Assembly: GCA_020621405.1 (NCBI GenBank)
Contig: JAHRYN010000005.1
Coordinates: 62,001-126,000, forward strand
Origin: Betaproteobacteria bacterium
GTDB lineage: Bacteria; Pseudomonadota; Gammaproteobacteria; Burkholderiales; Rhodocyclaceae
Direction of reading: 5' to 3'
DNA length: 64,000 bases
Part shown: positions 9,460-19,860 of the stretch, in pieces
How positions within the stretch are numbered: position 1 is the first letter of the stretch
Layout of the letters: every line of letters begins with the position of its first letter
Program-made: the position numbers and the translations under genes
Notes under the pieces: generated by a model
Database searches by the model: none
Seen by the model: the letters and a program-made list of their open reading frames with translations, nothing else
What the model was told of the DNA's origin: nothing

Positions 9460-9540
9460 AAAGAGCCAGTCGATGCGGTGTGCCGGACACCGGTACCGCG
9501 TTGGGACGTTGATTATTCAAACTCGACAATCGGAGGGGAT

Positions 9541-10734
9541 ATGACAATTAAAATTCGAAACTCGCTCGGCAGGAATGCTGCAGCCGGTTCGCACAAACTC
9601 GCTGCCGGCGCTGCCGCAGCACTGCTGATTTCTCTTGCACCGGGACTGGCGAAGGCCGACATCCTGATCGGCGAAGTCGCGGATACCAAGCTGTCCATGT
9701 TCGGCATCATCGACGTCGGTCTGCTGTACAACAGCAAGGCTGGCGCCAATGACAACAGCAAGCTTTCGATGGAAACCAGCGGCCTGCGCCAGACCGTCAT
9801 CGGTTTCAAGGGTGAGCGCTACCTGCAGCCCAACCTGACGGCCTTCTTCAACCTGGAATCGCACTTCGATACCAACGACGGTTTCCTGCACGGCACCGGC
9901 GATGCGGCCGGTACCAAGCCGGGCGGCAACACACCGCTGTTCCGTCGTCAGGCGAATCTTGGCGTACGCGGTGATTGGGGTAGCCTGACTTTCGGCCGCC
10001 AGTACGGCCCGGCACTGCTGGCCCACATCGGTACCGAGCCGCGTGCGTTCAAGGAGCAGTTCTCGAACCTCTACGCCTGGGCGTACGGTCAGCTGTTCAC
10101 GACCGCCGGTGCCACCGGCGGGAACCGCAACACCAACAACGACGTCGGCATCTTCTTCAGCAATGCCGTGCAGTATCGTCACACGCTCGGCCCGGTCAGT
10201 TTCGGCGTGCTGTACGCCTTTGGCGGCCAGCCCGGCTCGGTCAAGGACAACAATGCCTATGCCGTCGGTGCGACCTACAACGGACCGATCGTCCTGTCCG
10301 CCTCCTATCAGGCGATGCGCGACGAACAGACCGGCAAGAACAACGTCGAGCACATGAGCTTCGGTTTCGCCGTGCCCTACGGTGACTTCACGCTCAAGAC
10401 CAATTACATGAACGCGAAGAACAATACCAAGACCGGTGCGGAGCAGGCCGATATCGATGGTATCGGCGTCGGTGTGGACTGGAAGTGGCACGCCAACAAT
10501 TCGGCCACCGTCGCCTTCTACCACAACAAGGACACGGCCCATCACTCCGACAAGACCAAGACGCTCGTGATCAGCAATGACTACCAGTGGCGCCCCGATA
10601 CGACGCTGTACATCCAGCTGGCCCGCGCGGATGCCGACGACGGCGCGACGCTGCGCACCAGCATTGTTGCGGGCGGCGTCAACCCCGGCGTCAAGAGCAC
10701 CCTGCTCAACGTCGGTCTGAATTTCAATTTCTGA
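9541..10734 (+). CDS. Gram-negative porin (betaproteobacterial type)
   Basis: 397 residues from the ATG at 9541, preceded by GGAGGGGAT; the frame stays open upstream but without a start signal. A long signal peptide ends LAPGLAKA-D near residue 40. The mature protein shows porin-4 features: FGIIDVGLLYNSKAG, SGLRQTVIGFKGERYLQPNL, RRQANLGVRGDWGSLTFGRQY, and a C-terminal LLNVGLNFNF ending in Phe. It forms a trimeric outer-membrane channel. As first gene before the PQQ alcohol dehydrogenase, behind a sigma-54 promoter, it probably admits the alcohol substrate or a related solute. Confidence 0.9.
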   Translation: MTIKIRNSLGRNAAAGSHKLAAGAAAALLISLAPGLAKADILIGEVADTKLSMFGIIDVGLLYNSKAGANDNSKLSMETSGLRQTVIGFKGERYLQPNLTAFFNLESHFDTNDGFLHGTGDAAGTKPGGNTPLFRRQANLGVRGDWGSLTFGRQYGPALLAHIGTEPRAFKEQFSNLYAWAYGQLFTTAGATGGNRNTNNDVGIFFSNAVQYRHTLGPVSFGVLYAFGGQPGSVKDNNAYAVGATYNGPIVLSASYQAMRDEQTGKNNVEHMSFGFAVPYGDFTLKTNYMNAKNNTKTGAEQADIDGIGVGVDWKWHANNSATVAFYHNKDTAHHSDKTKTLVISNDYQWRPDTTLYIQLARADADDGATLRTSIVAGGVNPGVKSTLLNVGLNFNF

Positions 10735-10844: not shown

Positions 10845-12536
10845 ATGAAAGCCTCAAGCCGCAAGAATTTCGGTGTCACGCCCGCTGCTGCAATGCTGGC
10901 AGGCGCCATCCTTTCCGCCTTCATCGCGACGCCCGCTGCCGCGCAGACCAAGCCCGGTTTCGAAGATCCGAACAACTGGCCGGAGTATCACCGCACAGGC
11001 AACGCCTGGCGCTTCAGCCCGCTCACGCAGATCAACAAGGACAACGTCAAGAAGCTGAAGGTGGCCTGGATCCATCAGCCGGGCAACATCACGCACGGCC
11101 TGCAGGCAACGCCGATCGAGATCGACGGCGTCCTGTACTACGTGTCCGCCAACAACAATGTCTGGGCGGTCGACGCAGCCAGTGGCAAGACGCTGTGGAA
11201 CTACGCACCGAAGCTGGCACCCATCGTCGGTCAGGTGTTCTACGGTGCTGCCAGCCGGGGCGTCACCGTCGGCCGCGGCAAGGTGTTCCTCGGCACGCTG
11301 GACGGCCGCTTCGTCGCGATCGACCAGAAGACCGGCAAGGAAGTCTGGTCGACCCAGCTGACCGATCCGAAGACGCAGTACGGCGCACTCTTCTCGGCAC
11401 CGCCGCAGCTTGCCGGCAACATCCTGTTCGGCGGCACCACCGGCGGCGATCAGCCGATCGCGGGCAAGATCTACGCGGTCAATGCCGACACCGGCAAGGC
11501 GGCGTGGACCTTCGACGTGATCAAGAACGATCCGAAGAGCTGGCCGGGCGGCAGCGGCAAGGTCGGCGGCGGCAGCGCCTGGATGCCGGGCACCTACGAC
11601 GCGAAGAGCGACACCATCTACATCGGTACCTCGAACGCGGCACCGGATTACTACAACTACGATCGCAAGGGCGACAACCTCTATACGGCATCGCTGCTGG
11701 CGCTTGATCCGAAGACCGGCAAGGTGAAGTGGCATCGCCAGGAAGTGCCGCACGACTCGTGGGACTACGACTCGGCCTATGAAGCGCTGGTGGTGCAGAA
11801 GGACGGCAAGGACGTCATCGTCCACCTGAACAAGGGCGGCTTCGTGTTCGTGATGGACAAGAAGGACGGCAAGCTCGAGAACGTATGGCAGTTCGCCGAG
11901 CACATGAACTGGGTCAAGGGCATCGATCCGAAGACCGGTGCGCTGATCGATCCGGTGTATCCGGAAATCGACAAGACCAAGACCTTCTGCCCGAACCTGC
12001 TGGGTGCGCGCAGCTGGAACCACGGTGCCTACAATCCGGGTACCGGCCTGTGGTACTCGCATGCGATGGAAGTCTGCAACGAGGTGGTGGCCGGCAAGGA
12101 CGATCCGGACAACCTGAAGGCCGTGTCGGCGCTGTCGCTGGGCATCGAATCGATCAAGCTGGTATCGCCGCCGAACGACAAGCCGTACGGCCGTCTCGAT
12201 GCACGTGACCCGATCACCGGCAAGCGCAAGTGGACCATCCGCTACGACATGCCGCCGCTGTCCAGCGTGCTGACCACGGCCGGTGGCCTGGTGATTACCG
12301 GCGACATGGAAGGCCACGTGTTCGCCTACGACGCCGATGACGGCAAGCAGCTGTGGACCTTCAGCGCCGGTTCCGGCCTGCGCGGCGGCCCGATCAGCTA
12401 CTCGGTCAATGGCAAGCAGTACATCGTGGTGCCGACCGGTCTGGGTTCGCATGCACCGGGCTTCCTGTCCGGCGCCTACCCGCAGATCAAGGACCTGCCG
12501 GGCGGTGCCGCACTGATCGCCTTCACGCTGGAATAG
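10845..12536 (+). CDS. PQQ-dependent alcohol dehydrogenase (quinoprotein), lanthanide-type residues
   Basis: 563 residues: signal peptide 1-33, then an eight-bladed propeller of tryptophan-docking repeats (NNVWAVDAASGKTLW, GRFVAIDQKTGKEVW, GKIYAVNADTGKAAW, GHVFAYDADDGKQLW). There is no C-terminal haem domain, so it needs a separate cytochrome. By alignment from memory with MxaF, N264 and D307 are the metal ligand and catalytic Asp. D309, two residues after D307 (WDYDS), is the extra Asp typical of lanthanide enzymes such as XoxF; MxaF has Ala there. D202 stands where Glu is usual. The vicinal Cys-Cys pair near residue 133 is absent (Tyr-Gly). Substrate is unknown; the link to acetoin genes suggests a diol or short alcohol. 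Confidence 0.88.
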   Translation: MKASSRKNFGVTPAAAMLAGAILSAFIATPAAAQTKPGFEDPNNWPEYHRTGNAWRFSPLTQINKDNVKKLKVAWIHQPGNITHGLQATPIEIDGVLYYVSANNNVWAVDAASGKTLWNYAPKLAPIVGQVFYGAASRGVTVGRGKVFLGTLDGRFVAIDQKTGKEVWSTQLTDPKTQYGALFSAPPQLAGNILFGGTTGGDQPIAGKIYAVNADTGKAAWTFDVIKNDPKSWPGGSGKVGGGSAWMPGTYDAKSDTIYIGTSNAAPDYYNYDRKGDNLYTASLLALDPKTGKVKWHRQEVPHDSWDYDSAYEALVVQKDGKDVIVHLNKGGFVFVMDKKDGKLENVWQFAEHMNWVKGIDPKTGALIDPVYPEIDKTKTFCPNLLGARSWNHGAYNPGTGLWYSHAMEVCNEVVAGKDDPDNLKAVSALSLGIESIKLVSPPNDKPYGRLDARDPITGKRKWTIRYDMPPLSSVLTTAGGLVITGDMEGHVFAYDADDGKQLWTFSAGSGLRGGPISYSVNGKQYIVVPTGLGSHAPGFLSGAYPQIKDLPGGAALIAFTLE

Positions 12537-12693: not shown

Positions 12694-13101
12694 ATGACTG
12701 CCAACCGATTCAGGAACCGCGTGTGCGCCAGCCTGTGCGCCATCCTTCTGACCTGCGGCGCTGGCATGACCTGTGTGGCAGCCGCCGGACCATCGGACGC
12801 CGGCGACGAAGAGGCGCACGTGCCGGCACCGGCGACCTTCGATCTGACGGACCCGGCGCGTATCGCCGTCGGGCGCAGGCGCTTCGACAAGATATGTGCC
12901 GCGTACTGTCACGGCAAGGAAGGTGTCGGCGGACGGGCTCCCGACTTCAAGGGCCGCAAGGATCTGCCGGACGAAGACGCTTACAAGACCATCTTCTACG
13001 GGCGTCGCAACGCCGACGTGATGCCGCCATGGGGCGAGGCTTTCACCAGTGACCAGATATGGGAACTGGTGGCCTACATCAAGTTTCTCGGTACGCAGTG
13101 A
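12694..13101 (+). CDS. Periplasmic monohaem cytochrome c with CX3CH motif
   Basis: 135 residues with a signal peptide (about 1-31). The haem-binding site is C68-A-A-Y-C72-H73, that is CX3CH instead of CX2CH; the codons are unambiguous. M110 (NADVMPPWG) is the probable sixth haem ligand, and the C-terminal helix DQIWELVAYIKFLG is typical of class I cytochromes c. Its place 157 bases after the PQQ dehydrogenase makes it the likely electron acceptor for that enzyme. CX3CH needs either an unusual fit to the normal maturation system or a special one. Confidence 0.85.
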   Translation: MTANRFRNRVCASLCAILLTCGAGMTCVAAAGPSDAGDEEAHVPAPATFDLTDPARIAVGRRRFDKICAAYCHGKEGVGGRAPDFKGRKDLPDEDAYKTIFYGRRNADVMPPWGEAFTSDQIWELVAYIKFLGTQ

Positions 13102-13176: not shown

Positions 13177-15216
13177 TCAATTATTGCTTGCCATCCGTTC
13201 GTCGCCGTCGCGGTAATTCGGCGCCACGATGCGCAGCCGGGACATCTTGCGATAGAAGGTGGCGCGCGACATGCCGAGTTGCCGGGCTGTTTCCGTCACC
13301 TTCCAGTGATTCCGGCGCAGTGCATCGAGCATCTTCTGGCGCAGCAGCAGACATTTTTCGCCCAGCGGTTCGCCGTCGCGCAGTTCGGCAGGATCGGCGA
13401 CCGCGGACAGCGCCAGCCGGGCTTGAGGCGGAGCACCCAGGATGGGCGCGCCCCGCGTGCGCAGCTCATGCGGGAAATGATCGATCAGCAGTTGCGGGCC
13501 GTCGACGATGGCACATGCGTAACGGATGGCGTGCCTGAGCTGGCGGATGTTGCCGGGCCAGCTGTAGGCCAGCAGCAAGTCCATCGTCGCATGCTCGATC
13601 GTCAGCGCGGTCCGCTCCATCGCGCTGCATTCCTCCTGCAATACCTGCAGGATCAGTTCGCGCCTGTCTTCGCGATCGCGCAGCGCCGGCAGCATGAACG
13701 ATGCGCCATTCAGCCGGTAGAACAGATCCTCGCGGAAACGTCCCTGACGAACCAGGTCCGGCAGGTCCTGATGGGTTGCACAGATGACATGAAGATTGAC
13801 CGGAATCGGCTGCTCGGCACCCAGCGGCACGACTTCGCCCTCCGCCAGCACGCGCAGCAGACGGCACTGCAGTGACAGCGGCATGTCGCCGATTTCGTCC
13901 AGGAACAGCGTGCCGCCGTCCGACTGCAGGATCTTTCCCTTCGAGCCCTTGTTGCGTGCGCCGGTGAAGGCACCGTCGCGGTAGCCGAACAGCTCGCTCT
14001 CGATCAGGCTTTCCGGAATCGCTGCGCAGTTGAGCGCGACGAAGGGTTGTTTTGCGCGCGTGCTGTAATCGTGAATGGCCCGCGCAAACGCTTCCTTGCC
14101 GGTGCCGGTCTCTCCCAGCAGCATGACGGGAATGTCGCGGTTGGCCACCTTGACTGCGCAGGCGACATTGGCCCGCAGACGCGGGTCGCCGAGTGCCAGG
14201 TGGCGGAATCCGCGCGGTGCATCGACCTCGTCGGCAATCACCGCCGGCTTGCTCGCGACCTGCTGCTGCGAACGCGCGTGAGGTGCACGCAGCGTGGCGA
14301 ACAGCCGGGTGCCGGTGGCGAACATGCGCAGCGGGAACGGCACGCCCGGACTGGCGTGGGCCGCAATCAGGATGTCGTTTGCGGTGCACTCGAAAAGATC
14401 GTGCAGGAACTCCGCGCGACGGCCCTTGTGATTGATCAGATCGTTCCTGGCGCGACGGTTGCCGCCGACTATCCGTCCATCATCATCGAAGGCGATCAGG
14501 TAGTCGGTTTCCACCGGCAGGAATTCGGCCAGGCGACCCAGTTGCAGTATCCAGTGCTTGCGCAGGCTGTAGTGCGTGTAGGCGTCCTCGATCAGTCGCG
14601 CCTTCTCGACCACCATCTGATAGACCAGCAGCTGGCTCTCGCGATGCTCCGGCGAGTACAGCGCCGACGCGTCGAGCACGGCGATCTGTTCGTCGTCCGG
14701 GCCGACGATCGGGGCAGAGCTGCAGGTGAAGCTGATGTTGTGGGAACGGAAATGTTCGGAACGATGGACCAGCGTCGGCTGCCGGTCGGTCAGGGTGGTG
14801 CCGATGCCGCAGGTACCTTCGCTTTCCTCGGACCAGCAGGTGCCGAGGCGAAAGCCTTCCATGCGGAAATCCCGCTCGAGGTGGGGCACCGTGCGGTAGT
14901 CCACCGTCACGCCGGCAGCGTCGGTCATCAGCACGCAGTAGTTGGCGGGCAGCAGTTCGCGGTGCAGTCGCTCAACGCCTTCGTGCGCGATGCGCATGAA
15001 GGTTTCCAGGCGGTCGCGGTGCTCGCGCAGTTCATAGGCTGTCACGACCTTGGGAACCGTCGACAGGCCGGGGTCGATCGAATGCTTGTTCAGCGAACGA
15101 CGCCAGGAATTGGTCAGCCTGTCTGCAGCAGGGTCGCTGGGCGGGGTGCGTGAACGCCCTTCCACCACCTTCAGTACCCGTTCTATGTGGGCCGCAACTT
15201 CGCGTCCTTGTCTCAT
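13177..15216 (-). CDS. acoR: AcoR-like sigma-54-dependent transcriptional activator
   Basis: 679 residues from the ATG at 15216, preceded by GGAGGAG. The N-terminal sensor region (about 1-330) has a GAF-type domain. The AAA+ domain carries Walker A GETGTGKE (368-375), the sigma-54 contact loop GAFTGA (415-420) and Walker B GGTLFLDEIGD (434-444). A Fis-type helix-turn-helix lies near the C-terminus (VTETARQLGMSRATFYRKM). This is the architecture of AcoR, the activator of acetoin catabolism. It is divergent from acoX and convergent with the porin/dehydrogenase/cytochrome block. The 330-base gap to acoX carries the palindromes and a sigma-54 promoter. It probably also controls the sites at 6166 and 9332. 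Confidence 0.9.
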   Translation of the reverse strand: MRQGREVAAHIERVLKVVEGRSRTPPSDPAADRLTNSWRRSLNKHSIDPGLSTVPKVVTAYELREHRDRLETFMRIAHEGVERLHRELLPANYCVLMTDAAGVTVDYRTVPHLERDFRMEGFRLGTCWSEESEGTCGIGTTLTDRQPTLVHRSEHFRSHNISFTCSSAPIVGPDDEQIAVLDASALYSPEHRESQLLVYQMVVEKARLIEDAYTHYSLRKHWILQLGRLAEFLPVETDYLIAFDDDGRIVGGNRRARNDLINHKGRRAEFLHDLFECTANDILIAAHASPGVPFPLRMFATGTRLFATLRAPHARSQQQVASKPAVIADEVDAPRGFRHLALGDPRLRANVACAVKVANRDIPVMLLGETGTGKEAFARAIHDYSTRAKQPFVALNCAAIPESLIESELFGYRDGAFTGARNKGSKGKILQSDGGTLFLDEIGDMPLSLQCRLLRVLAEGEVVPLGAEQPIPVNLHVICATHQDLPDLVRQGRFREDLFYRLNGASFMLPALRDREDRRELILQVLQEECSAMERTALTIEHATMDLLLAYSWPGNIRQLRHAIRYACAIVDGPQLLIDHFPHELRTRGAPILGAPPQARLALSAVADPAELRDGEPLGEKCLLLRQKMLDALRRNHWKVTETARQLGMSRATFYRKMSRLRIVAPNYRDGDERMASNN

Positions 15217-15493: not shown

Positions 15494-15509
15494 TGGCACG
15501 CTGGATGCA
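15494..15509 (+). promoter_or_regulatory. Sigma-54 promoter of the acoX operon
   Basis: TGGCACGCTGGATGCA matches the sigma-54 consensus at nearly every defined position, with GG (15495-15496) and GC (15507-15508) ten bases apart. Transcription would start near 15520, about 27 bases before the GTG of acoX. Confidence 0.75.
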
Positions 15510-15546: not shown

Positions 15547-16587
15547 GTGCCAGCCAAATCATCCCGCCCGACCGTAGTCGGCATCATCGCCAACCCGGCG
15601 TCGGGCAGGGACATCCGTCGGCTCACCTCCCGTGCCTCGGTGTTTCCGAATGCGGAGAAGGCCAGCATGATCGTGCGTGCCATCGCCGGCCTGGAAGCGG
15701 CCGGCGTGCGCGACGTGCTGGTCATGCCGGACAACGGCTCGATCTCGGGCATCGTGTTCCGCGCGCTCGGCCTGTCAGGCGATCAGACCGCCGCCGGTCC
15801 GCGCTTCGTCGACATGCCGGTCGATGGATCGGCGGCCGACACGCTGCGCGCCACCGAACACATGTGCGAAGCCGGTGCCACCGCACTCATCGTGCTCGGT
15901 GGCGACGGCACGCACCGTGCGGTCGCTGCGCGCTGCGGCAAGGTTCCTCTGCTCGCCTTGTCCACCGGCACCAACAATGCCTTTCCCGAAATGCGCGAGG
16001 CGACGGTCGCCGGTCTGGCTGCCGGACTGGTCGCCAGTGGTGCAGTGCCGCCGGCAGCCGGTGTGCGCCAGAACAAGCTGTTGCGCGTGTCCTGCGACGG
16101 ACGCGACGACATCGCGCTGGTCGATGTCTGCGTCACGGCGCATCCCTACGTCGGCTCGCGTGCCGTGTGGGACTGCGCGCAGGTCGAGGATCTGTTCGTC
16201 ACGTTTGCCGGCGCCGACGGCATAGGCCTGTCGGCCATCGCCGGTCAGCTGGAACCCGTTTCGCGCGCCGCGCTGCACGGACTGCACGTGCGCTGTGCGC
16301 TGCCGGCGCAGACGCCGCGCCGCGTGCTGGCAGCCATCGCCCCCGGCCTGGTGGCCGAAGTCGGCGTGCGCGATTACAGCAGGCTGATGCCGCATGTGCG
16401 CACGGTGCTGACCGGACGCAGCGGCACCATCGCACTCGACGGCGAGCGCGAGATCGAATTCGACGCCGCCAGCCACATCGAGGTGAGGCTAGATCCGCAC
16501 GGCCCGCTGACCATCGACGTCGCCGCCACGCTCACTTACGCCGCGCAGCACCGCCTGCTGCGCGGCTACATCGGAGATGCGGCATGA
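15547..16587 (+). CDS. acoX: AcoX, NAD-kinase-like protein of acetoin operons
   Basis: 346 residues from a GTG start with CCGGAG about 10 bases upstream. The N-terminal region VVGIIANPASGRDIRRL and the block ALIVLGGDGTHRAV (the GGDG of NAD and lipid kinases), followed by STGTNNAFPE, mark the ATP-NAD kinase-like AcoX family. AcoX is regularly found at the head of aco operons, but its role is not settled. It is the first gene after the sigma-54 promoter. A 142-base gap with GC-rich hairpin potential separates it from acoA. Confidence 0.88.
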   Translation: MPAKSSRPTVVGIIANPASGRDIRRLTSRASVFPNAEKASMIVRAIAGLEAAGVRDVLVMPDNGSISGIVFRALGLSGDQTAAGPRFVDMPVDGSAADTLRATEHMCEAGATALIVLGGDGTHRAVAARCGKVPLLALSTGTNNAFPEMREATVAGLAAGLVASGAVPPAAGVRQNKLLRVSCDGRDDIALVDVCVTAHPYVGSRAVWDCAQVEDLFVTFAGADGIGLSAIAGQLEPVSRAALHGLHVRCALPAQTPRRVLAAIAPGLVAEVGVRDYSRLMPHVRTVLTGRSGTIALDGEREIEFDAASHIEVRLDPHGPLTIDVAATLTYAAQHRLLRGYIGDAA

Positions 16588-16729
16588 AGCGCGCATCCCG
16601 GTTGTTCACTCTCCAGGGGGCGGCCGGCGGTACGCGCCGGCGTCTGCCCCTCACCCGGCTTGTTCAGCCATCCGCCCGCAGCTGCCGGAGATCAGCGGGC
16701 ATTTCAGTCCACAAAGAAGAGGAGCATTC

Positions 16730-17704
16730 ATGAGCAGTCCTTTGACCAGGGAAGGCCTCCTGCAGGCCTACCGGACCATGCGCACGATCCGGGATTTCGA
16801 AGAGCGCGTGCACGTCGATTTCGCCACCGGCGAAATACCGGGTTTCGTCCATCTGTATGCCGGCGAGGAAGCTTCGGCGACCGGCATCTGCATGCACCTG
16901 AACCGTGACGACTACATCGCCAGCACGCACCGCGGCCATGGCCACTGCATCGCCAAGGGTGTCGATCCGGTCGGCATGATGGCCGAGATCTGGGGCAAGC
17001 GTACCGGCACCTGCAAGGGCAAGGGCGGCTCGATGCACATTGCCGACCTCGAGGTCGGCATGCTCGGCGCCAACGGCATCGTCGGTGGCGGCGGGCCGCT
17101 GATCTGCGGTACCGCGCTGGCCTCCAAGCTGCGCGGCACCAACAACGTGGGCATCTGCTTCTTCGGCGACGGCGCCTCGAACCAGGGCACGATCTTCGAG
17201 GCGATGAACCTCGCCACCGTGTGGAAGCTGCCGGTCATTTTCGTGGCCGAAAACAACGGCTACGCCGAAGCGACGTCGAGCAACTTCTCGGTCGCCGTCG
17301 AGAACATCGCCGACCGTGCCGGCGCCTTCGGCATGCCGGGCGTCATCGTCGACGGATTCGACTTCTTCGCCGTGCACGAAGCGGCCGGCGAAGCCATCAG
17401 GCGCGCTCGCGAAGGCCACGGTCCGACCCTGCTCGAGGTGAAGCTGTCGCGCTACTACGGCCACTTCGAAGGCGACCAGCAGACCTACCGCGCTCCGGGC
17501 GAGGTGCAGAAGCTGCGCGACACCAAGGACTGCCTGATGCAGTTCGCCAAGCGCGTGACCTCGCGCGGCGAGCTGTCGATGGCCGACATCGAGGCCATCG
17601 ACCGCGAAGTCAAAACGATGATCGACGACTCGGTGGTCCAGGCCAAGGCAGCGCCGCTGCCGCTGCCGGAAGACCTGATGACCGACGTCTACGTCTCTTA
17701 CTGA
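16730..17704 (+). CDS. acoA: Acetoin dehydrogenase E1 alpha subunit
   Basis: 324 residues from the ATG at 16730 with AGAGGAG upstream; the frame is open further upstream but without a start signal. The thiamine-diphosphate motif is present (FFGDGASNQGTIFEAMN, then FVAENN). Other hallmarks of E1-alpha are PGFVHLYAGEEA, STHRGHGH and GGSMHI. With AcoB it forms the TPP-dependent E1 that cleaves acetoin, releasing acetaldehyde and passing an acetyl group to lipoate. Belongs to the acoX-SDR operon. Confidence 0.96.
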   Translation: MSSPLTREGLLQAYRTMRTIRDFEERVHVDFATGEIPGFVHLYAGEEASATGICMHLNRDDYIASTHRGHGHCIAKGVDPVGMMAEIWGKRTGTCKGKGGSMHIADLEVGMLGANGIVGGGGPLICGTALASKLRGTNNVGICFFGDGASNQGTIFEAMNLATVWKLPVIFVAENNGYAEATSSNFSVAVENIADRAGAFGMPGVIVDGFDFFAVHEAAGEAIRRAREGHGPTLLEVKLSRYYGHFEGDQQTYRAPGEVQKLRDTKDCLMQFAKRVTSRGELSMADIEAIDREVKTMIDDSVVQAKAAPLPLPEDLMTDVYVSY

Positions 17705-17737: not shown

Positions 17738-18748
17738 ATGGCCAGAAAGATCACTTACCAGCAAGCCATCAACGAGGCGCTGGATCAGGAAATGTCGCGT
17801 GACCCGAGCGTCATCGTGATGGGCGAGGACGTGGCCGGCGGTGCTGGCGCACCGGGCGACGACGACGCGTGGGGCGGTGTGCTCGGCGTCACCAAGGGCC
17901 TGTACGCCAAGCATCCGGGACGCGTGCTCGACACGCCCATCTCGGAGTCGGGCTATGTCGGTGCCGCCGTCGGTGCCGCGTGCAACGGACTGCGTCCGGT
18001 CGCCGAACTGATGTTCATCGACTTCATGGGTGTGTGCTTCGACCAGATCTTCAACCAGGCAGCCAAGTTCCGCTACATGTTCGGCGGCAAGGCGAAGACG
18101 CCGGTGGTCATCCGCGCCATGTACGGCGCCGGCTTCCGCGCCGCTGCGCAGCACTCGCAGTGCCTGTACAACATCTTCACCCACATCCCCGGGCTGAAGG
18201 TGGTGATTCCGTCGAATCCGTATGACGCGAAGGGCCTGCTGATCCAGTCCATCCGCGACAACGATCCGGTCATATTCCTCGAGCACAAGGCGCTGTACAC
18301 GATGGAAGGCGACGTGCCGGAAGAGAGCTATGTCGTTCCGTTCGGCGAAGCCGCCGTGGTGCAGGAGGGCGACGACGTGACCATCGTGGCGATGGGCCGC
18401 ATGGTCAATTACGCGAAGGACGCCGCAGCCAGCCTGCGCAAGCGCGGCATCCAGTGCGAAATCATCGATCCGCGCACCACCTCGCCGCTGGACACCGACA
18501 CCATTCTCGAAAGCGTCGAGCGCACCGGTCGCCTGGTGGTGGTCGACGAATCGCACCCGCGCTGCAGCATGGCGTCGGACATTTCCGGCTTCATCGCCCA
18601 GGAAGCCTTCGGCGCGCTCAAGGCGCCGATCCAGATGGTGACTGCGCCGCACGTGCCGGTGCCGTTCGCCGCTTCGCTTGAAGAGCTTTACATCCCGAGT
18701 CCGGCCCGTATCGAAGAGGCCGTGATGAAGGTCAAGGAGTACCGCTGA
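17738..18748 (+). CDS. acoB: Acetoin dehydrogenase E1 beta subunit
   Basis: 336 residues with GGAG 9 bases upstream. It contains the E1-beta signatures VIVMGEDVAGGAG, DTPISESGYVGAAVGAA and RCSMASDISGFIAQEAF. It completes the TPP site together with AcoA and docks on the E2 core. It starts 33 bases after acoA, and its stop overlaps the acoC start by one base (TGATG). Confidence 0.96.
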   Translation: MARKITYQQAINEALDQEMSRDPSVIVMGEDVAGGAGAPGDDDAWGGVLGVTKGLYAKHPGRVLDTPISESGYVGAAVGAACNGLRPVAELMFIDFMGVCFDQIFNQAAKFRYMFGGKAKTPVVIRAMYGAGFRAAAQHSQCLYNIFTHIPGLKVVIPSNPYDAKGLLIQSIRDNDPVIFLEHKALYTMEGDVPEESYVVPFGEAAVVQEGDDVTIVAMGRMVNYAKDAAASLRKRGIQCEIIDPRTTSPLDTDTILESVERTGRLVVVDESHPRCSMASDISGFIAQEAFGALKAPIQMVTAPHVPVPFAASLEELYIPSPARIEEAVMKVKEYR

Positions 18749-19860
18749 TGTCCGCAATCTTTACCGTCACCATGCCCAAGTGGGGCCTTTCCATGCAGGA
18801 AGGGAAGGTCAACCTGTGGCTGAAGGAAGTCGGTGACACGATCAACCCCGGCGAGGAAATCATCGAGGTCGAGAGCGAGAAGATTTCCGGCGCGGTCGAA
18901 GCCGCGACCAGCGGCGTGCTGCGCCGTCAGGTCGCCCAGCCGGACGAAGTGCTGCCGGTCGGCGCATTGCTCGGCGTCATCGCCGATGCCGATGTGTCGG
19001 ACGAGCTGATCGACGATCTGGTCACGCGTTTCCAGGCCGAATTCGTGCCGCCCACCGAGGACGAGGCCGATGCCGGCCCGCAGACACAGACCGTGCAGGT
19101 CGGTGGCGTGCAGCTGCGCTACCTGAAGCTGGGTGCGGATGCGGCGGGTGCGGTACCGCTGCTGCTGATCCACGGCTTCGGCGGCGACCTCAACAACTGG
19201 CTGTTCAACCATGAGCCGCTGTCGGCGTCGCGCGCGGTGTATGCGCTCGATCTGCCGGGGCACGGCAGTTCGACCAAGGACACCGGGATTGCATCGCTCG
19301 ATGCACTGGCCGAAGTCGTGGTCGGTTTCATGGACGCGGTCGGCATTGAGTGCGCGCATCTGGCCGGGCATTCGATGGGCGGCGGCGTGTGCCTGGCCGT
19401 GACGCGCCGGGCGCCGCAGAAGGTCAAGTCGCTGTCGCTGATCGCCAGTGCCGGACTCGGTGCCGAGATCAACGGCGGCTACATCGACGGTTTCGTCGCG
19501 GCGGCCTCGCGCAACGCCTTCAAGCCGGTGCTCCAGCAGCTGTACTCGGACGCCGATCTGGTCACCCGCTCGATGATCGACGACATGCTCAAGTACAAGC
19601 GTCTCGAAGGTGTCGAAGCGGCACTGACCAAGCTGTCCGCCGGGCTGTTCGCCGGTGGCGTCCAGTCGGAGCAGCTGGCATCTGCTGTCAGCGGCAAGCC
19701 GGTGCTGGTGATCTGGGGCGAGCACGACCGCATCATTCCGGCGTCGCATGCCAGTGCGATTCCGGGGGCGACGGTGAAGGTGTTGCCGGGTCAGGGCCAC
19801 ATGGTCCAGCTGGAAGCGGCAAGCGAAGTCAACAAGCTGATCGAGTCCTTCATCGGCTGA
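18748..19860 (+). CDS. acoC: Acetoin dehydrogenase E2, lipoyl domain fused to alpha/beta hydrolase
   Basis: 370 residues. The N-terminal lipoyl domain (about 4-80) has the modification site ESEKISG. The C-terminal domain (about 120-370) is an alpha/beta hydrolase with GHSMGGG, an Asp/His pair consistent with catalysis (GEHDR, GHMVQ) and a preceding LLIHGFGGD oxyanion region. This lipoyl-hydrolase fusion is the known AcoC arrangement and differs from pyruvate-type E2. It transfers the acetyl group to CoA. No E3 gene is in the operon, so a lipoamide dehydrogenase must come from elsewhere. Confidence 0.94.
   Translation: MSAIFTVTMPKWGLSMQEGKVNLWLKEVGDTINPGEEIIEVESEKISGAVEAATSGVLRRQVAQPDEVLPVGALLGVIADADVSDELIDDLVTRFQAEFVPPTEDEADAGPQTQTVQVGGVQLRYLKLGADAAGAVPLLLIHGFGGDLNNWLFNHEPLSASRAVYALDLPGHGSSTKDTGIASLDALAEVVVGFMDAVGIECAHLAGHSMGGGVCLAVTRRAPQKVKSLSLIASAGLGAEINGGYIDGFVAAASRNAFKPVLQQLYSDADLVTRSMIDDMLKYKRLEGVEAALTKLSAGLFAGGVQSEQLASAVSGKPVLVIWGEHDRIIPASHASAIPGATVKVLPGQGHMVQLEAASEVNKLIESFIG

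Follow-up and report, generated by a model that had tools for sequence, protein, structure and literature searches.

A vicinal pair of cysteines beside PQQ is usual in type I PQQ-dependent alcohol dehydrogenases (PQQ-ADHs), without being universal. Both the lanthanide-dependent ethanol dehydrogenase PedH/ExaF (6ZCV/6ZCW) and the methanol dehydrogenase XoxF (6DAM) have this pair, together with a Glu among the metal ligands and a catalytic Asp followed, after one residue, by a second Asp (D-x-D). The type II quinohaemoprotein ADH 1KV9, which presumably contains a fused haem domain, has Cys-Cys, Glu, and D-x-T. Five proteins of solved structure, 4CVB (a quinone-dependent alcohol dehydrogenase from Pseudogluconobacter saccharoketogenes), 7WMD and 22VI (DON dehydrogenases), 9M2C, and 4MH1 (sorbose dehydrogenase), have sequences without the Cys pair, and loss of the disulfide is thus already known; for 4CVB, Rozeboom is said to have reported it in 2015. 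These five carry D-x-E, not D-x-D, and a different stretch at the Glu position, so that the absence of the pair, D-x-D, and loss of the Glu are not seen together in any of them. D-x-D is taken as a marker of lanthanide use (PMC11996626, in excerpt). As to substrates, the P. putida enzymes PedE and PedH act on (2S,3S)-2,3-butanediol (PMC8427195, in excerpt), which makes butanediol oxidation known quinoprotein chemistry. Acetoin is handled by the acoXABC/AcoR system, in which acoX, acoA, acoB, and acoC follow in this order beside a sigma-54 activator.

The window analysed here (the whole stretch of 64,000 nucleotides) contains such an acetoin operon in the same order, but with genes for a porin, a quinoprotein, and a cytochrome on the far side of acoR (table 1). 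The activator is named AcoR because of its position beside acoXABC, and AcoC scores well above the cut-off of its equivalog model.

Table 1. Features of the locus and of two kinds of related locus (positions are those of the window unless a locus is named)
Feature	Position	Strand	Basis
Outer-membrane porin, immediately upstream of the quinoprotein gene, start provisional	9517..10734	+	PF13609 141.9 bits on 9571-10734
PQQ-dependent dehydrogenase, 563 aa, likely periplasmic	10845..12536	+	PF01011, TIGR03075, predicted fold
Phe132-Tyr133, at the vicinal Cys-pair position of XoxF, PedH, 1kv9	11238..11243	+	alignment, codons
Asp202, replacing the metal-ligand Glu	11448..11450	+	alignment
Asp307-Tyr-Asp309, catalytic Asp plus a second Asp of the lanthanide type	11763..11771	+	alignment
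Partner c-type cytochrome, 135 aa	12694..13101	+	PF13442 52.4 bits; model matches cytochrome c folds
CAAYCH (CX3CH haem motif, one residue longer than CXXCH)	12895..12912	+	
AcoR-like sigma-54 activator	13177..15216	-	PF00158 216.4 bits and HTH_8
sigma-54-like -24/-12 site ahead of acoX	15494..15509	+	score 11/12; 1/300 shuffles reaches it
acoX (NAD-kinase-like)	15547..16587	+	PF01513 50.8 bits
acoA, E1 alpha	16724..17704	+	PF00676 319.5 bits
acoB, E1 beta	17738..18748	+	PF02779 168.4 bits, PF02780 139.1 bits
acoC, acetoin dehydrogenase E2	18748..19860	+	NF011457 483.8 bits (cut-off 307)
Paralogue locus, same genome (C12)	L073 869-11360		
Zoogloea loci with a glucose-dehydrogenase-like PQQ protein before acoR	L025 6541-9314; L026 5345-8127; L034 3949-6611		

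Fold and active site of the quinoprotein

The quinoprotein (P0001) begins with a signal-like stretch and matches the Pfam profile PF01011 at 271.4 bits (cut-off 26.7), while its score with the NCBI subfamily model TIGR03075, 429.5 bits, lies under the cut-off of 480.05. Its top phmmer match in the PDB is 1KV9, and its nearest named relatives belong to the genus Methyloversatilis. The AlphaFold2 model, built on an alignment 24 sequences deep (pLDDT 79.1, pTM 0.84), has PedH as its top structural match (6zcw; Z 48.2, rmsd 1.9, 517 residues aligned), and its 27 best matches are all PQQ dehydrogenases (Z 42.4-48.2). The predicted fold, the eight-bladed propeller of the PQQ-ADHs, is beyond doubt; model confidence is modest at the active site, with 64 for the block of residues 131-140 and 63 for the block 301-310.

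Positions of the active site are named here after residue roles in MxaF/MDH (metal ligands, catalytic base, PQQ contacts), which we take to carry over. Alignment with XoxF (6dam), PedH (6zcv), and 1kv9 bore out most of what the first-pass annotation had claimed from the sequence of this protein. D307-Y-D309, read there as lanthanide-type, is aligned to the D-x-D motif shared by XoxF and PedH, with D309 on the second Asp. D202 (in TTGGDQP), proposed to stand for the Glu ligand, is aligned to the Glu of XoxF, PedH, and 1kv9 (SGGE, AGGE, GGAE). The adjacent cysteines are indeed missing, but the residues in their place had been given as Y133-G134; counted from the conserved Arg (R138, the Arg of 'NRG'), the pair aligns to F132-Y133, one residue off. 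The protein has the catalytic Asp (D307) and the ligand Asn (N264) expected of a type I PQQ-ADH, both shared with PedH, and lacks the ligand Glu and Cys-Cys. W246, R138, and K330 are also retained, Ser390 stands where PedH and 1kv9 carry Asn, and a second Cys pair, C382/C411, is aligned to two cysteines of XoxF. Judged from these substitutions, both the metal site and the PQQ contact would be altered, as the annotation had suggested.

A conserved branch and its metal site

To place the protein in its family, we collected 119 matches, dropped five short ones and then duplicates to leave 81, and afterwards removed one sequence identical to P0001 (L006) and one fragment (L043); the final alignment had 83 rows. 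The combination of no Cys pair, Asp for the metal Glu, and D-x-D occurs in 48 of them, P0001 counted. The other classes are no pair, Gly, and D-x-D (7 rows); no pair, Glu, and D-x-D (5 rows, 3 of them within the P0001 clade); Cys pair, Glu, and D-x-D (8 rows, including the XoxF and PedH chains); Cys pair, Asp, and D-x-D (4 rows); and mixed (11 rows). Every row with an identity of about 65% or higher (43 rows, P0001 counted) lacks the pair and keeps both D202 and D-x-D, and the recurrence of these traits in 43 close rows from many assemblies rules out sequencing error or chance as their source.

Thinning this set to 39 rows gave a maximum-likelihood tree in which P0001 belongs to a clade of 20 rows with full support (100/100), and the same clade is recovered with 38 rows in a 59-row tree (SH-aLRT 100); both trees contain long rows and carry warnings on that account. 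The suspicion that this was an atypical branch of the family is thus supported. The clade stands apart from XoxF (31% identity to P0001), PedH (34%), the type II quinohaemoproteins, and the 4CVB/sorbose proteins, and membership in any of these groups is excluded by the tree. Its nearest named neighbour is the 1KV9 clade (fork 89/91); 4cvb, 4mh1, and 22vi cluster together elsewhere in the tree (100/99), away from P0001. Among the matches listed in a literature search, titles and the openings of abstracts gave no description of this quinoprotein clade; it is a real and conserved branch of a known enzyme family for which we found no earlier description.

Catalytic Asp, second Asp, Asn, and Trp are present in every aligned row of the clade. 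By contrast, the metal-Glu position varies within its 20 rows: Asp in 13, no acid in 5, and Glu in 2, which are basal and one of which is a plasmid copy from Rhodococcus. The seven Gly rows of the alignment have Gly at this position or, after a shift of one column, Ile or Met, and are non-acidic both ways. Asp for Glu also occurs in one group outside the clade, since a separate set of proteins that keep the Cys pair (L038, L040, L042, and L046) has Asp together with D-x-D.

Two further variants were observed in the course of this census. A PQQ protein of the same genome (L004, on C1) has the Cys pair, Lys at the metal Glu, and G-x-D at the catalytic Asp, and is possibly non-catalytic. An XoxF-like protein (L100 3787-5697) has Gly both at the Glu position and at that of the second Asp.

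Lanthanide use is plausible for this quinoprotein, as far as aligned residues can tell, and we take it to be likelier than calcium use because D-x-D is the marker generally accepted. The lanthanide enzymes aligned here, XoxF and PedH, have Glu, not Asp, at position 202. Instead, D309 could be a relic in a site that the shortened Asp202 has adapted to calcium, or to some other divalent ion, which would make the protein a calcium enzyme comparable to the 4CVB type. This finds some backing in 4CVB itself, which has no Cys pair, has no Glu in the corresponding stretch, and binds calcium, and in the m-GDH enzymes, which can complex Ca, Mg, Zn, and Sr with D-x-D in place (both from PMC11996626, in excerpt). 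We nevertheless hold it to be unlikely: D-x-D is fixed in all 48 rows with no Cys pair and Asp and in all 7 Gly rows of the clade, the Cys-pair-less 4cvb, 7wmd, 9m2c, 22vi, and 4mh1 have D-x-E in its stead, and two PedH-like paralogues and one XoxF-like paralogue encoded in the same genome are D-x-D too.

Acetoin genes and the proposed function

We propose that the quinoprotein is a periplasmic PQQ-dependent secondary-alcohol dehydrogenase of a disulfide-less clade, which most likely converts 2,3-butanediol, or a close vicinal diol, into acetoin; we give this reading a probability of about one half. The porin would admit the diol, which the quinoprotein would oxidise at PQQ with D307 as the catalytic base. 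The metal would be held by D307, D309, N264, and the shortened acid D202, and is more probably a lanthanide than calcium. The neighbouring CX3CH cytochrome c would take up the electrons from PQQ and hand them on to the respiratory chain; acetoin, once inside the cell, would be cleaved by AcoABC, with AcoR controlling the aco operon. PqqC is encoded in the genome. Of the three substrates that had been suggested for assay, 2,3-butanediol, ethanol, and methanol, the first is favoured over the other two by the acetoin genes in the context. In M. universalis FAM5, acetoin genes are among the modules that are silent on methanol and methylamine (PMC5023235, in excerpt), which fits a role outside C1 metabolism.

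P0001 retrieved 39 loci, and the conservation of this arrangement was followed in 37 of them (L009-L045), the two more distant loci being set aside. A cytochrome c gene follows the quinoprotein gene in all 37, and the porin is in the same position in many. Downstream, acoR at 60% identity or more is present in 21 loci, in 7 of them some kb further on or past a second PQQ gene (L025, L026, L033, L034, L035, L040, and L043); acoA at 80% or more is present in 16, and several contigs end before it. Loci with aco genes span Methyloversatilis, Zoogloea, Aromatoleum, Azoarcus, and others. The 16 loci without an acoR of at least 60% comprise 7 with another, divergent E1 alpha/beta pair upstream (about 42-50% identity; domains checked in L017) and 9 where the surroundings differ or the contig stops; in one of these 9, a 50% acoR piece sits at the end of the contig.

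Two local variants may be mentioned. In a Zoogloeaceae locus (L017 1042-7069), genes for a GMC oxidoreductase and a 2-oxoacid dehydrogenase acyltransferase accompany the divergent E1 alpha/beta pair. In Zoogloea, the enzyme/cytochrome pair is separated from acoR by a second PQQ protein, which is glucose-dehydrogenase-like and has a CAAFCH cytochrome of its own.

The same association was seen across 61 related genomes, the enzyme being counted at 65% identity or more: enzyme and acoC are both present in 13 and both absent from 47, with acoC alone in one (enzyme 13/61, acoC 14/61) and the enzyme alone in none. The sole Methyloversatilis genome without the enzyme also lacks acoC, and two genomes (G052 and G058) have relatives of the enzyme at 42-48% and no acoC. 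As 12 of the 13 genomes with both belong to one genus, the independent events behind these counts are few.

It is possible, though we think doubtful, that the enzyme acts on some other secondary alcohol or diol, with acoXABC a mere neighbour of a conserved unit made of porin, dehydrogenase, and cytochrome. The 16 loci without an acoR of at least 60% point in this direction, as do the different E1 pair in 7 of them and the Skermanella copy, which, like the Rhodococcus plasmid copy, has no adjoining aco genes. Against this, the enzyme and acoC are jointly present or absent in 60 of the 61 genomes, the double-negative Methyloversatilis included, and we retain 2,3-butanediol as the preferred substrate.

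Co-regulation of the quinoprotein by AcoR may also be envisaged. All 13 loci scanned have a sigma-54-like site before acoX that scores 10-11 out of 12 and is matched by no more than 5 of 300 shuffles. Ahead of the porin, 15 loci were scanned; their top sites score 9-11, and the number of shuffles, out of 300, that do as well ranges from 0 to 77: at most 9 in 7 loci, and 35 to 77 in 8 loci, among them the window, whose own pre-porin site is weak (43/300). No such site was found directly before the quinoprotein gene in the window. A scan of the whole window was no richer than chance (28 sites, 35.6 expected), and we have therefore used only the positionally conserved site before acoX.

A paralogue encoded elsewhere in the same genome (54% identity to P0001 over the whole alignment, 56.5% by blastp) likewise has no Cys pair, Asp for the metal Glu, and D-x-D. 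For its neighbours the best matches are ApcA, ApcC, and ApcD, subunits of acetophenone carboxylase, with scores far under the curated cut-offs in each case. Both copies thus adjoin a system that would consume a ketone, and for this reason we read the clade as one of secondary-alcohol dehydrogenases. In the Gly branch, a brief look at the surroundings revealed no ketone-consuming neighbour. An acetone carboxylase beside the paralogue was considered and rejected, the models matched being those of ApcA, ApcC, ApcD, and caprolactamase subunits, all below cut-off.

The partner cytochrome

The cytochrome encoded after the quinoprotein is a second oddity of the locus, absent from the first-pass annotation and new here. 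Its haem motif, CAAYCH, departs from the CXXCH expected of a class I cytochrome, and the best PDB alignments gap one residue at this motif. In the fold, on the other hand, the protein agrees with that class: the 50 structural matches listed for its predicted model are cytochrome c proteins or complexes holding one, with Z of 9.9-12.3, values that are weak for helical folds (under about 13), and the invariant M110 is a possible distal ligand.

All 37 loci carry CX3CH, as CAGYCH or CAAYCH, and in 23 of them the open frame that encodes it also contains a canonical CXXCH domain, which is missing in the other 14; in the 135-residue protein of the window, CX3CH is the only haem motif, and the CX3CH cytochrome of this genus is single-haem. 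Within the genome the motif is unique among 30 cytochrome loci scanned (4 further weak matches gave no locus), the PedF-type cytochrome, for instance, having a canonical CARCH. Elsewhere, it recurs in the Gly branch (CGGYCH in 4, CAGYCH in 1) and in the Zoogloea glucose-dehydrogenase-like pair. Normal CXXCH partners are found with the paralogue (CAYCH), with five other relatives (L094-L097 and L107), and with the Rhodococcus copy. The haem-motif scan detected no cytochrome beside the enzyme at L098 and L103, which are on short contigs, or at L104 and L105, which are Glu rows, so that the pairing as observed covers part of the clade. The Skermanella and Rhodococcus plasmids (L107 8887-11879 and L108 8887-11893) encode relatives that lack the Cys pair, and next to them come a cytochrome c and then a periplasmic binding protein, an order that resembles xoxFGJ.

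The cytochrome tree (31 CX3CH and 16 CX2CH rows, 91 columns), which also contains long rows and carries the corresponding warning, requires two motif changes and cannot tell gain from loss of CX3CH. When the cytochrome was used to search 398 genomes of the phylum (E 1e-12), it turned up solely in this genome, a weak census given the short query. The motif has been reported in ImcH and two CymA homologues, all multihaem (PMC6295460, in excerpt). Titles and abstract openings among the literature matches listed mention no CX3CH cytochrome beside a PQQ enzyme.

These data also bear on whether the cytochrome might be defective in maturation, or not a haem protein at all, with electrons leaving through another cytochrome. 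The canonical domain that shares the open frame in 23 of 37 loci could then be the true acceptor. Such a scheme appears improbable, because CX3CH is the sole haem motif in the other 14 loci and in the window's own protein, because no aligned sequence departs from the two Cys, the His, M110, P111, or W113, and because ImcH and the CymA homologues are reported with the same motif. Still less credible is an empty quinoprotein, a propeller with neither PQQ binding nor catalysis. In its favour, the Cys pair and Glu are lost, Ser390 replaces Asn, and the acido-empty model TIGR04528 gives 329.8 bits. Against it, this score is far under the cut-off of 650, the protein retains D307, W246, N264, R138, and K330, and a cytochrome accompanies it in every one of the 37 loci.

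Our preferred reading of the locus, a butanediol dehydrogenase that passes electrons to the CX3CH cytochrome, lends itself to a wider and much more tentative one, on balance unlikely. The clade as a whole may consist of lanthanide-dependent secondary-alcohol dehydrogenases that gave up the disulfide and the ligand Glu and hold the metal through D-x-D, serving butanediol/acetoin and ketone modules, with the aco branch passing electrons to a CX3CH cytochrome. If so, the Glu would have become Asp in one part of the clade and been left without an acidic replacement in another, and a single-haem cytochrome would carry a motif described, in the literature consulted here, only in multihaem proteins (PMC6295460, in excerpt). 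The clade is a natural experiment: its second Asp never varies, and the position of the Glu ligand holds Glu, Asp, or no acid. Its enzymes could show whether electron transfer from PQQ requires the vicinal disulfide, and the CX3CH cytochromes how much extra loop can be accommodated in a simple electron carrier when haem is attached.
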